DNA from: Methanovulcanius yangii
Lineage (GTDB): Archaea > Halobacteriota > Methanomicrobia > Methanomicrobiales > Methanomicrobiaceae
Direction of reading: 5' to 3'
DNA length: 64,000 nucleotides
Assembly (NCBI RefSeq): GCF_018687785.1
Contig: NZ_LTBL01000001.1
Location: forward strand, 673,780 to 737,779
In this document: positions 29,141 to 35,010 of the stretch, piece by piece
How positions within the stretch are numbered: the first letter of the stretch is position 1
Layout of the letters: every line of letters begins with the position of its first letter
The notes under the pieces: generated by a model
Told to the model about the DNA's origin: nothing
The model's input: only the letters and a program-made list of their open reading frames with translations
The model's database searches: none
Made by a program: the position numbers and the translations under genes

Positions 29141-29362
29141 CGCGTTCACATTGTTGTCGCTCACACAGATCACCAGATATCCTACAATTTCACGGGAAAT
29201 CGAGATCGTTTGGATACAAATGGGGTATTATGCACAGCATCTATAAAAGAATACTGAAGGTGCACCAATCCCGCGTATTCTCCAATAAAGTGGATTATAA
29301 AGGTATATTAGATAGGAATGAAATATCCTAATCTGAATACGTCTTTCTTTCAGGAGGAGTTC

Positions 29363-30004
29363 ATGAATCTCTTTATCCGGACCAAAAAACGACTATCCAG
29401 ATTTTTAAGCGCCTTTCTCAAGAAGCGCCAGTCACGAATAGGCATATACGGGCCGCCGAACGCGGGCAAGACTACGCTTTCCAACCGTATCGTGCGTGAC
29501 TGGACGGGCGACGCCCTCGGCCCCGTCAGTGAAATTCCGCATGAAACACGTCGTGCACGCAGGAAAGAAGGCATCACCATCTCAAACCAGAACGGCAGTT
29601 CGCTGACCATCGACATCGTCGATACCCCGGGTGTGACGACAAAGATCGACTACCAGGAATTTGTCGAGTACGGTATCGAAAAGGATGAGGCGATCAAACG
29701 GGCCCGTGAGGCAACCGAAGGTGTGGCGGAGGCCATGCACTGGCTCAGGGAGGATATCGACGGCGTCATCTACATGCTTGATGCAACGCTCGACCCCTTT
29801 ACCCAGGTCAATATCATGCTCATCGGCATCATTGAGAGCAGAAACCTTCCGGTCCTCATCGTCGCAAACAAGATCGATCTCCCCGATGCTGCACCGCAGC
29901 GCATAAAAAAGGCCTTCCCGCAGCACCCGGTCATCTCGATCTCCGGTCTCGAAGGCGATAACGTTGAAGAACTCTACGAAAAAATGCTCGAGGTCTTTGG
30001 GTGA
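29363..30004 (+). CDS. Era-like GTP-binding protein
   Basis: The 213-residue GTPase has G1 GPPNAGKT at 30-37, G3 DTPG at 87-90 and G4 NKID at 169-172. A basic N terminus of about 25 residues may touch membrane or RNA. AGGAGG five bases before ATG 29363 decides the start over an upstream ATG at 29318. It is followed by DUF2073 and a DUF2072 zinc-ribbon gene, a trio conserved across euryarchaea and named origin-associated proteins in comparative work. The cellular role is unproven. Confidence 0.88.
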   Translation: MNLFIRTKKRLSRFLSAFLKKRQSRIGIYGPPNAGKTTLSNRIVRDWTGDALGPVSEIPHETRRARRKEGITISNQNGSSLTIDIVDTPGVTTKIDYQEFVEYGIEKDEAIKRAREATEGVAEAMHWLREDIDGVIYMLDATLDPFTQVNIMLIGIIESRNLPVLIVANKIDLPDAAPQRIKKAFPQHPVISISGLEGDNVEELYEKMLEVFG

Positions 30005-30388: not shown

Positions 30389-30817
30389 ATGCCGCACAAA
30401 TGCACACAATGCGGACGGGAATTTACTGACGGGTCGACCGTCATTCTCAAGGGCTGCCCCAGTTGCGGGGGGAAGAAATTCCTCTACGTCAAGGCAGCGG
30501 ATATCCACAAGGATGTCCTTGAAGAGAAGACCATCGGACAGATAGCCGAAGAGACAAAACAGCAGTTTCTGGAACTGAAGGAAGAAAAATCCGAAAAACG
30601 TTCCGGCGAAGAGGCGAAGCGTCCCCGGAAAATAGAGATATATGACCGGATTGAGAGCATCACCGTTGTCAATCCCGGCACCTATGAACTCAATATCGAG
30701 AAACTTGCCGAGTCGGATGAGGTGGTCGTGCGCATGGGAAGCGACGACCGGTACCTTGTGGACATCCACTCGATGGGCAAGCCGGCAAAGAAGAAGAAGG
30801 ATAAAGCGAAGAAATAA
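30389..30817 (+). CDS. DUF2072 zinc-ribbon protein
   Basis: The 142-residue protein begins with a zinc ribbon, MPHKCTQCGREF then CPSCGGKKF (C5, C8, C23, C26). A charged, probably helical middle (about 40-82) and a compact C-terminal segment (DRIESITVVNPGTYELNIEKLAES) follow. It ends in a lysine-rich tail. It matches the zinc-ribbon partner (DUF2072, called OapC in some surveys) of the Era-like GTPase/DUF2073 cluster. Nucleic acid or ribosome binding is inferred from the ribbon and basic tail. Confidence 0.82.
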   Translation: MPHKCTQCGREFTDGSTVILKGCPSCGGKKFLYVKAADIHKDVLEEKTIGQIAEETKQQFLELKEEKSEKRSGEEAKRPRKIEIYDRIESITVVNPGTYELNIEKLAESDEVVVRMGSDDRYLVDIHSMGKPAKKKKDKAKK

Positions 30818-31096: not shown

Positions 31097-32650
31097 ATGT
31101 ATAACCCGATGCAGCAGCAAGCCGGCAATGCCAACGGAAAGATACACTGGGCAGACGTCTGTGCAGCCGAGGTTGACCAGGATACTCCCCATCGGATTGC
31201 AACAGGGATCACTCCTTCCGGTCCGATTCATATCGGAAATATGCGGGAGGTGCTGACGGGCGATCTCGTCTACAAAGCGATGAACGAGCGTGGTCTCGAT
31301 GCCGAACTCATATACATAGCGGATGACTTCGACCCTCTCAGAAAGGTCTACCCGTTCCTGCCTGAAGAATACAGCAAATATATCGGCCGTCCTCTCTGTG
31401 ACATCCCATGTCCCTGCGGGGAGCATGCAAGCTATGCGGAGCATTTCCTCGAGCCGTTTTTAAGCGCTCTGACCGAGATGGATGTCCGGCCCACCGTCAT
31501 CAAATCGAGCGAACAGTACCGGAGCGGCCGGTATACGGAACAGATACGGACCGTTCTCGAAAAGAGCCGGGAGATCAAGGAGATCCTCGAGAGAGTCTCC
31601 CGGCGCACCCTCCCCGACGACTGGGTGCCGTATTATCCGGTCTGTGCCGGGTGCGGGACCATCTCCAATGCCGAGATCCTCGCCCATGATGCCGATTGCC
31701 ATACCGTGTCATACCGCTGCGGGTGCGGATACGAAGGCGTCTCCGACTATGCAAAGGGCGAAGGAAAACTTGTCTGGCGTGTCGACTGGCCGATGCGGTG
31801 GGCCGCCCTCGGCATCACCGTCGAACCGTTCGGCAAGGATCATGCGGCCGCCGGTGGATCATATGACACGGGAAGGGAGATCGTCCGCACCATCTTCGGC
31901 GGAATGGAGCCCCACCCCGTCCAGTATGAATGGATCAGCCTGAAGGGCAAGGGCGCCATGGCATCCTCAACGGGGGTTGCCATCACCATCAACTCCATGC
32001 TCGACATCGTCCCCCCGGATGTCCTTAGGTATTTGATCGTCCGGACAAAACCGGAAAAGGCAATCAACTTCGACCCGGGCATGGGCCTCCTGAGCCTTAT
32101 CGACGAGTATGCCCGCGTCGCAGAAGAAGGAAACACCCGCGAGTACGAGCTTTCAGCCATCTCCTCGGTTGCAACCGACATCCCCTTCCGCCACCTCGTG
32201 ACGGTCGTTCAGATTGCACAGGATGACGATGCAATATTCGATATTCTTGAAAGAAGCGGCTATAATGTGGCGAACCGCGATGCAGTCCTCGCACGGGCAA
32301 AACGGGCGAAGCTGTGGATTGAGCAGTACGCACCCGCCGACGTCCGGTTCACCATCAGGGAGACCCTTCCCGAAGAGACGTTTGCGTTCGGTGACGATGA
32401 GCGCTACGGGCTTGGCGCCCTCCTTGCGGCATACACCGGCTTTGACGAGTGGCGTGCGGAAGACATCCACAACGCCGTCTACAAGGTCGCCGAAGATACC
32501 AACGTCAATCCAAAGGTCATCTTCACGGCGGTATACATCGCCATCCTCGGCCAGAAACGCGGCCCGCGCCTGGGATGGTTCCTCGAGGCACTCGGCAGTG
32601 ACTTTGTCACCGGACGGATTGCAGAAGCGGTGAACGCCGGTGTTGAGTAG
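31097..32650 (+). CDS. lysS: lysyl-tRNA synthetase, class I
   Basis: The 517-residue enzyme is the archaeal class I LysRS rather than the class II form. HIGH motif HIGN at 45-48 (PSGPIHIGNMRE), KMSKS-like loop GKGAMASSTG near 290, and cysteine pairs CPCGEH and CAGC...CGCG typical of this family. Start: ATG 31097, with TACATATT about 25 bases upstream, suggests a leaderless mRNA; ATG 31109 is an alternative. The 3' end overlaps the radical SAM gene by 11 bases. Confidence 0.95.
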   Translation: MYNPMQQQAGNANGKIHWADVCAAEVDQDTPHRIATGITPSGPIHIGNMREVLTGDLVYKAMNERGLDAELIYIADDFDPLRKVYPFLPEEYSKYIGRPLCDIPCPCGEHASYAEHFLEPFLSALTEMDVRPTVIKSSEQYRSGRYTEQIRTVLEKSREIKEILERVSRRTLPDDWVPYYPVCAGCGTISNAEILAHDADCHTVSYRCGCGYEGVSDYAKGEGKLVWRVDWPMRWAALGITVEPFGKDHAAAGGSYDTGREIVRTIFGGMEPHPVQYEWISLKGKGAMASSTGVAITINSMLDIVPPDVLRYLIVRTKPEKAINFDPGMGLLSLIDEYARVAEEGNTREYELSAISSVATDIPFRHLVTVVQIAQDDDAIFDILERSGYNVANRDAVLARAKRAKLWIEQYAPADVRFTIRETLPEETFAFGDDERYGLGALLAAYTGFDEWRAEDIHNAVYKVAEDTNVNPKVIFTAVYIAILGQKRGPRLGWFLEALGSDFVTGRIAEAVNAGVE

Positions 32651-33602
32651 GGCCTGTCAACTCTGCCACGAGGGGGCCAAGATGGTCCTCTTCATCACCG
32701 GACAGTGCAACCGCACCTGCTGGTACTGCCCGATATCGAGTGAACGAAAAGGAAATAGTGCCGTCTGGGCAAATGACCGGGAGGTTCGCTCCGACGATGA
32801 CGTCCTGGACGAGGCACGCATCATGAGTGCCCTTGGGACCGGCATCACCGGGGGGGAACCGTTCCTTGTCCTCGACCGCATCGTCCATTACTCCCGGCTC
32901 CTGAAAGAGACGTTCGGAAACGACCATCACATCCACATGTATACCGGTATCGCACCGGGGGAGCGGGAACTGACAGCCCTCGTCGGCCTCGTCGATGAGA
33001 TCCGGTTTCACCCGCCGCATGAGATATGGCCCCATATCATGGAGAGCAGGTTTCCGGACGCAATACGCACCGCAAAGCGCCTCGGCATGGAAGTCACCAT
33101 AGAAGTCCCGTCGCTGCCAGGGCTCGAGTACTTCGAACCCCTCCTCGATGAACTGGACTTCTTCAATATCAACGAGCTTGAATGGAGCGAGACCAATGCG
33201 GGCGAAATGCGGCAGCGGGGATTCGATCTCGAGGACTGCTACCACAACGCGGTGGGGGGCGCCGAAGAGTGGACCCGTGAGATACGGCGGCACGAAAAGG
33301 TCCATTGGTGCTCATCGACATTCAAGGACTCCATCCAGCTCAGGGAGCGCCTGAAGCGTATTGCCGCCAACACCGCCCGGCCGTTCGAGGAGATTACCGA
33401 GGACGGCACGGTGATATACGGTGTCCTCGAGTATGGGGACGAGATGCCGGAGATCGACCCCGACGAGATGGAGGTCATCGATGGTCGGGTGGAGATGGCA
33501 TGGTGGGTGCTCACCGAAGACTTCAATGATCATCCCGGTAAAAAATACGTCGTGGAACGGTTCCCGAACAACGGTATGGTCGTCGAGGTCATCCCGGTAT
33601 GA
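32640..33602 (+). CDS. radical SAM protein of unknown function
   Basis: The 320-residue protein carries the radical SAM cluster motif C23-x3-C27-x2-C30 (CNRTCWYC) and a GGEP segment (TGGEPFLVLDR). An additional CQLC pair at residues 6-9 precedes it. The C-terminal 90 residues, rich in acidic and aromatic residues, look like a separate domain. The start is GTG at 32640, overlapping lysS, with GGTGA about eight bases upstream. The stop overlaps the cis-prenyltransferase start as ATGA. Substrate is unknown; linkage to lysS and polyprenol synthesis is only positional. Confidence 0.82.
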   Translation: MLSRACQLCHEGAKMVLFITGQCNRTCWYCPISSERKGNSAVWANDREVRSDDDVLDEARIMSALGTGITGGEPFLVLDRIVHYSRLLKETFGNDHHIHMYTGIAPGERELTALVGLVDEIRFHPPHEIWPHIMESRFPDAIRTAKRLGMEVTIEVPSLPGLEYFEPLLDELDFFNINELEWSETNAGEMRQRGFDLEDCYHNAVGGAEEWTREIRRHEKVHWCSSTFKDSIQLRERLKRIAANTARPFEEITEDGTVIYGVLEYGDEMPEIDPDEMEVIDGRVEMAWWVLTEDFNDHPGKKYVVERFPNNGMVVEVIPV

Positions 33603-34387
33603 AGATACGTGCAATCCCCGAAAAGATCTACGAGTGGCACCTGAAAAAAAGCATCCGGCATGTGCCCGGTCACATCGCCATCATCATGGACGGCAACCGC
33701 CGGTATGCCTCCATTCTGGGGAAAAACACCGCATTCGGCCACTCCATGGGGGCGGAGACGACCGAACGGGTGCTTGAATGGGCACGGGACATCGGGGTTC
33801 GCTCCATCACGCTCTACACCTTTTCCACCGAGAACTTCAGCAGGTCGGAAGAGGAACTCTCCGAACTCTTCTCCCTTTTTACCAGGAAATTCGGGTCCGT
33901 CCGCAGCGATGAACGCTTCCACGCAAACGGGATATGTCTCCGGGTTGTCGGGGACCGGAGCCGGATACCTGCACCGCTCCTTGCAACGATAGAGGATGCG
34001 GAGGCGGCCACCCGTGACTATGACCGGTTTTTTCTCAATATTGCGCTTGCCTATGGGGGGCGAAACGAGATTATCAGGAGTGCACAGGGAATACTCGAGG
34101 ATGAACGTGAGGGACGCATCAGGCCGGACGAGATTACCGCTGCCATGGTCGAGGAGAAGATATGCGCCGACACGCATCTTGCACCCGTCGACCTGATCAT
34201 CCGCACGGGCAACGAACAGCGAACCTCAAACTTCCTGCCATGGCTTGCCAACGGCTATGAATCGGCGGTATATTTCTGTGCACCCTACTGGCCGCTCTTC
34301 AGAAAGATCGATCTGCTCCGGGGCATCCGCGTCTACAACGACCGGGTCAGGAACCATCACCTGCCGAACCGGCGGGTACGTATCTGA
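33599..34387 (+). CDS. uppS: cis-prenyltransferase (UppS family), catalytic subunit
   Basis: The 262-residue protein makes long-chain polyprenyl diphosphate, the lipid carrier for glycan assembly. HIAIIMDGNRR holds the catalytic aspartate D31; also seen are GHSMGAE, LYTFSTENFSRSEEE, and RTGNEQRTSNFLPW near 203-216, where the usual RTGGExR has N for G. The C-terminal YFCAPYWPLFRKIDLL region is complete. It follows a radical SAM gene with a 4-base overlap and converges with a second, divergent family member, overlapping by 31 bases. Confidence 0.92.
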   Translation: MKIRAIPEKIYEWHLKKSIRHVPGHIAIIMDGNRRYASILGKNTAFGHSMGAETTERVLEWARDIGVRSITLYTFSTENFSRSEEELSELFSLFTRKFGSVRSDERFHANGICLRVVGDRSRIPAPLLATIEDAEAATRDYDRFFLNIALAYGGRNEIIRSAQGILEDEREGRIRPDEITAAMVEEKICADTHLAPVDLIIRTGNEQRTSNFLPWLANGYESAVYFCAPYWPLFRKIDLLRGIRVYNDRVRNHHLPNRRVRI

Positions 34388-34950
34388 TAATCCCGCAGGG
34401 CGCGGAGAAAGTCAATTTTTCGGAAGGTGTCCCAGTTCACGTCCGTAAAAAAGAGTTCTGCGTATACCGACTGCCATATCAGAAAATCCGTCAACTGGTC
34501 ACCGCCCGTCCTGATGACGAGATCCGGTTCGGTCCTGATGGCCAGGTACGAACGAAACAGCTCCTCGTCCACCTCATCGGGAGAGACGCCCTCTTCAGCC
34601 ATGGACCGGATGGCCGCGGCAATCTCCTCTCGTCCCGACAGCCCGACGGCGATGAGGATCTCAAGGTTGCCCTCCCCGAACGCATCACATCCATTCTCCG
34701 TGTGCACCTCCACACGGGCAAAGGAAAAGAGATCCCGCAGCTCGGGAAGAAGGGTATGAATATCCGGCGAACCGGAAGTCCTGATATGGATGATGAGGGT
34801 TTTGATCCCGAGGTCCCTGCTCCACCGGGCGCAGTCGCCAATCTTTCCGGGGGCACTTTTCACCTCCTCCTCACTGACCATACAGCAGACATTTAAGGGA
34901 ATATCCTCCAGGGATTCCGTTAGCCTGCGTTCATACAATTTCCTGATCAT
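34357..34950 (-). CDS. divergent cis-prenyltransferase-like protein, likely non-catalytic partner subunit
   Basis: The 197-residue protein has the C-terminal half of the cis-prenyltransferase fold, including DLVIRTGGDQLTDFLIWQSVYAELFF and FRKIDFLRALRDYQ. The MDGNRR site with the catalytic aspartate is missing: the aligned position reads NVCCMVSEEEV. It ends RRFGR, containing the RxG motif typical of NgBR/Nus1 subunits of heteromeric enzymes. A two-subunit enzyme of this type is known from Methanosarcina. ATG 34950 matches family starts; ATG 34986 is an alternative. It converges with the catalytic subunit gene. Confidence 0.82.
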   Translation of the reverse strand: MIRKLYERRLTESLEDIPLNVCCMVSEEEVKSAPGKIGDCARWSRDLGIKTLIIHIRTSGSPDIHTLLPELRDLFSFARVEVHTENGCDAFGEGNLEILIAVGLSGREEIAAAIRSMAEEGVSPDEVDEELFRSYLAIRTEPDLVIRTGGDQLTDFLIWQSVYAELFFTDVNWDTFRKIDFLRALRDYQIRTRRFGR

Positions 34951-35010
34951 GATATCAGCTGCATTATTGGATACGGGACCCGTCATCCCATGGATGAGAT
35001 ATAATGAAGG

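Follow-up and report, generated by a model that had tools for sequence, protein, structure and literature searches.

A tail-to-tail gene pair very probably encoding a two-subunit cis-prenyltransferase in Methanovulcanius yangii and across its archaeal phylum

Described systems and the gene pair

Homodimeric cis-prenyltransferases, e.g., E. coli UppS, have an RxG motif. In the bacterial UppS homodimers, DGN and RxG are carried by one and the same chain, and the RxG tail of the other chain completes the active site. In the human heteromer of DHDDS and NgBR (NUS1), the C terminus of NgBR (R290-L291-G292-K293) crosses the interface into the DHDDS active site, where the backbone of this segment coordinates the IPP-site phosphate and its terminal carboxylate is in contact with DHDDS Arg37 and Arg85 (PMC7573591). 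Among the archaea, MM_0014 of Methanosarcina mazei is homodimeric, and MM_0618 together with MM_1083 is reported to form a heteromer with C45-50 products (PMC8131916), in agreement with the mention of a Methanosarcina heteromer in the preliminary description of the locus studied here.

The window, i.e., the whole stretch of 64,000 nucleotides of Methanovulcanius yangii that was analyzed (contig NZ_LTBL01000001.1, positions 673,780 to 737,779), holds two cis-prenyltransferase genes facing each other (Table 1). Both open reading frames of the pair described earlier as overlapping by 31 bases are present and score above the cut-off (27 bits) of the Pfam family PF01255 (Prenyltransf), with 215 bits for the plus-strand gene and 95.5 bits for the minus-strand gene. 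They are the only two PF01255 copies in this genome (96% complete, 2.29 Mb). The minus-strand gene could also start at an in-frame ATG farther upstream, at 34986, for a protein of 209 aa, but most relatives begin at the equivalent of 34950.

Table 1. Coordinates within the window of the predicted gene pair and adjoining features
Feature	Position	Strand	Remark
Predicted catalytic cis-prenyltransferase subunit gene	33599..34387	+	262 aa
Predicted non-catalytic partner subunit gene	34357..34950	-	197 aa
Convergent overlap of both genes	34357..34387	.	31 bases
Codons of RRFGR (RxG plus one terminal residue)	34360..34374	-	Partner C terminus
Radical SAM gene	32640..33602	+	4-base overlap (ATGA) with the catalytic start

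Compared with bacterial UppS, the two chains have the same fold but carry one motif each, instead of DGN and RxG together. As in DHDDS/NgBR, one chain has DGNRR, the other ends with RxG and a single further residue, and the partner resembles NgBR in lacking the catalytic loop and in being shortened at the same place of the N-terminal half. However, NgBR has a long N-terminal membrane region, for which there is no room in the archaeal partner, with only ca. 17 residues (MIRKLYERRLTESLEDI) before the domain in its 197-aa form, and the long C-terminal extension of DHDDS is absent from the archaeal catalytic chain. The M. mazei pair MM_0618/MM_1083 belongs to the same phylum and also combines one catalytic and one non-catalytic homologue, putatively orthologous by elimination (see below), but in the Methanosarcina-like family the genes are far apart, whereas those of the window are adjacent, convergent, and overlapping. 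MM_0014/MA1831, also archaeal members of PF01255, differ in being homodimeric and in forming their own clade, seen in this comparison only in some Methanosarcina-like genomes, as the third copy.

The radical SAM gene is probably the upstream operon neighbor of the catalytic gene. A homologue of it was found in the flank of 94 distinct loci and shares the strand of the catalytic gene in all of them. A few kilobases upstream there is a gene of the OapC family (origin-associated protein; 30389-30817, plus strand), near a GTPase gene (29318-30004), and a replication origin may lie close to it.

Complementary motifs in the two chains

The MDGNRR catalytic site claimed for the plus-strand gene is present (residues 30-35, within HIAIIMDGNRR), together with FSTEN and IRTGNEQRTSNF, while the tail (..LPNRRVRI) has no C-terminal RxG. 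When 48 catalytic chains and 44 partners were aligned jointly with E. coli UppS, the equivalents of D26, G27, N28, R30, N74, R77, R200, and S202 were found in 48/48 catalytic chains. RxG was absent from the C terminus of all 27 aligned catalytic chains of the order (Methanomicrobiales), and Arg occupied the aligned RxG column in 5 of the 48 chains of the joint alignment, where the E. coli row is one residue short near the end and the labels of the last columns are consequently shifted by one. A loss of the E213 equivalent in the catalytic chain was also considered, but the joint alignment gives it no support. The residue before DGN is Met in the window protein, as in bacterial enzymes (MD codons at 33686-33691), and Gln (IIQDGNRR) in nearly all relatives of the order.

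The minus-strand protein has CCMVSEEEV at the position of the DGN loop and ends in TRRFGR, so that the absence of the catalytic site and the presence of a C-terminal RxG, both reported before, were seen again. None of the 44 aligned partners has R77, all have the H43 stretch deleted, and DGN is not a conserved triplet among them. All 44 retain W207 and E213 of the C-terminal core (the core had been described as retained), and 43/44 retain the RxG Arg. With the active-site columns gone and the C-terminal columns kept, the partner is a chain that no longer has an active site but retains the C-terminal core and tail. Its predicted structure (pLDDT 85.5, pTM 0.83) is a complete cis-prenyltransferase fold, which aligns with Bacillus subtilis UppS over 183 residues (Z 17.0, rmsd 2.7 Å).

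The partners end in R-x-G plus exactly one residue in 86/89 distinct proteins of the order and in 33/34 outside it. A few (L157, L089, L098, and L057) carry KFG or TLG instead, natural variants of use for probing the motif. RxG had been proposed as the hallmark of partner subunits; this does not hold, because the motif also occurs in homodimers, among them E. coli UppS. What is diagnostic is the combination, i.e., one chain with RxG and without DGN and the other with DGN and without RxG, and the alignment of both positions recommended in the preliminary description gave this pattern. By motif reading, the counterparts of the DHDDS residues that receive the NgBR tail (E81, N82, and R85) are E78, N79, and R82 in the window catalytic protein, invariant in its relatives.

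Distribution, gene order, and overlap

To follow the pair across the phylum, we surveyed 197 genomes with at least 90% completeness. PF01255 matches were found in 195 of them, nearly all with exactly two, and a partner profile built from the order matched 193/197 with E values of 1e-20 or better. Two of the four genomes without a match to this profile (family f15) have a short, divergent partner that likewise ends in RxG plus one residue. Such conservation rules out that the pair represents degenerate pseudogenes. One order relative has a third cis-prenyltransferase homologue (137 bits, G029:C20:37607-38212) besides the convergent pair.

In two genomes of a single genus (G045 and G053 of family f12, both ca. 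91% complete), neither cis-prenyltransferase subunit nor the STT3 oligosaccharyltransferase was found, a joint absence that fits a role in providing the carrier lipid for N-glycans and possibly means that carrier lipid and N-glycosylation were lost together. STT3 is present in the genome of M. yangii. Its gene (G000:C1:2150340-2152800; L193 445-2897) is split over two reading frames of 117 and 710 aa, either through an error in sequencing or because the frameshift is genuine.

In a maximum-likelihood tree, all partners formed one clade (100/99), apart from the catalytic chains and the MM_0014-like homodimers. Both subtrees track taxonomy, although support on the catalytic side was only 79/54, and the simplest reading of these sequences would be a single duplication before the phylum diversified. 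Two Methanosarcina-like genomes (G134 and G157) have three copies, the third being MM_0014-like: that of G134 matches MM_0014 at 3e-138, and that of G157 is its neighbor in the tree. Of the other two copies, one falls in the catalytic clade and one in the partner clade, and since the third is accounted for by MM_0014, we infer by elimination that they are the putative orthologues of MM_0618/MM_1083.

The convergent arrangement was found in 67/67 loci of the order with both genes on the DNA examined and in 29/30 close relatives. Both genes could be placed in 115 genomes of the phylum; in 56 of these, from 16 families, they lie within 3 kb of each other, and all 56 pairs are convergent, with none divergent or in tandem, a count that should not be read as a probability because the genomes are not independent. 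The genes are far apart in the Methanosarcina-like family, as well as in several further families. The simplest reading is that the tail-to-tail layout is ancestral. Where genes for subunits of one complex lie close together or overlap, they usually point the same way, and overlaps between convergent genes are relatively rare (PMC10666635). Since no single transcript can serve both genes of a convergent pair, the arrangement is unusual for subunits of one complex. We found no description of the gene order of this archaeal pair in the open-access literature searched. Split enzymes themselves were already known; what this comparison adds is the conserved convergent layout and the spread throughout the phylum.

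The overlap itself is less constant, being found in 28 of 89 distinct pairs of the order and falling into three classes (13, 31, and 27 bases), while elsewhere the genes are separated by 140 bases to several kilobases or are far apart. In the 13-base class, the x of RxG is Tyr in 12/12 cases, and the catalytic stop, TAA, lies on the strand opposite the T-TA of the Arg-Tyr codons. In the 31-base class, x is Phe (Leu once; 10/10), there is no such TAA, and the catalytic reading frame continues for six more codons until a TGA, which lies opposite the TAT-CA of the partner Tyr-Gln. The window belongs to this second class: the RxG Phe codon is read through, the catalytic stop lies antisense to the partner codons TAT CAG, and the catalytic protein has its NRRVRI tail because the partner motif is RFG and not RYG. 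The 27-base class uses another frame. At the level of codons, the RxG of one subunit is tied to the stop of the other, which amounts to a coding constraint.

A probable single enzyme from two genes and its possible origin

We consider it very probable, from the sequence comparisons above, that the plus- and minus-strand genes encode the catalytic and non-catalytic subunits of one heteromeric cis-prenyltransferase of the M. mazei MM_0618/MM_1083 type. The two-subunit enzyme of the preliminary description draws support from the complementary loss of DGN and RxG, the near-universal co-occurrence, the cis-prenyltransferase fold of the partner, and the orthology by elimination with M. mazei; with its retention in almost all genomes of the phylum, the pair is not a product of chance. 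The plus-strand subunit would bind the allylic primer and Mg by its DGNRR loop and IPP by the R-TG-x-x-x-R-x-S stretch. The minus-strand subunit would have lost its active site while keeping the dimer-forming C-terminal core, and its RxG-x-COOH tail would complete the active site of the catalytic subunit, whose own tail is lost, the same trans-completion as in DHDDS/NgBR. The enzyme would be the sole source in this genome of a polyprenyl diphosphate of ca. C45-C55, leading to the glycosyl carrier lipid. The physical complex, the dependence of activity on both chains, and the length and use of the product are what we infer from these comparisons.

Homodimers of DHDDS with weak activity can form in the absence of its partner (PMC7573591), and the catalytic protein could likewise be a working homodimer, with the minus-strand protein otherwise employed, e.g., in regulation or membrane delivery. 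We regard this as very unlikely, given that the catalytic chains are devoid of the RxG tail that the two chains of a homodimer provide to each other and that exactly this tail is kept by the partners in nearly every genome. Two separate homodimeric enzymes with different products, as the shared fold of both proteins might suggest, are hardly credible: no aligned partner retains R77 or the H43 stretch (44/44), DGN is not conserved among them, and the true archaeal homodimer MM_0014 retains DGNRR and forms a clade of its own. Rather unlikely, too, is the compound proposal that the pair is one enzyme and that the overlap also balances subunit levels by antisense transcripts, as suggested in the preliminary description. 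Every close pair is convergent and the window pair does overlap, but most pairs of the order (all except 28 of 89) do not, gaps reach several kilobases, and whole families with distant genes still keep the enzyme. An overlap that comes and goes is no evidence for antisense regulation.

The archaeal partner was also compared with NgBR/Nus1. The partner profile matched human NUS1 across almost all of its length (E 3e-10), and a profile of the N-terminal half at the level of the order retrieved NUS1 entries first in the PDB (E 0.005). The alignment to NUS1 has no gaps, whereas the catalytic enzymes have roughly a dozen extra residues between the His of LPxH and the Trp. The specificity of this N-terminal profile for NUS1 weakened with a wider alignment, as the phylum-wide version placed DHDDS first (8e-5) and NUS1 second (0.005). 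Orthology with NgBR was not recovered by fold searches: Foldseek and VIA-align put UppS, DHDDS, and plant enzymes first, with NUS1 absent among the 50 matches listed, so that the fold does not discriminate. Common descent of the archaeal partner and NgBR is possible on the basis of the profiles. A broader scenario, in which the enzyme was already split in the phylum ancestor by an inverted (tail-to-tail) duplication, the partner and NgBR/Nus1 share a non-catalytic ancestor, and eukaryotes obtained their two-subunit dolichol synthase from archaea, is offered only tentatively, and we think it doubtful.

If the two genes do form one heteromeric enzyme, the two-subunit cis-prenyltransferase would be the rule in one archaeal phylum and not a Methanosarcina exception. 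This phylum has genetically tractable organisms, in which the division of labor of the DHDDS/NgBR type can be studied.
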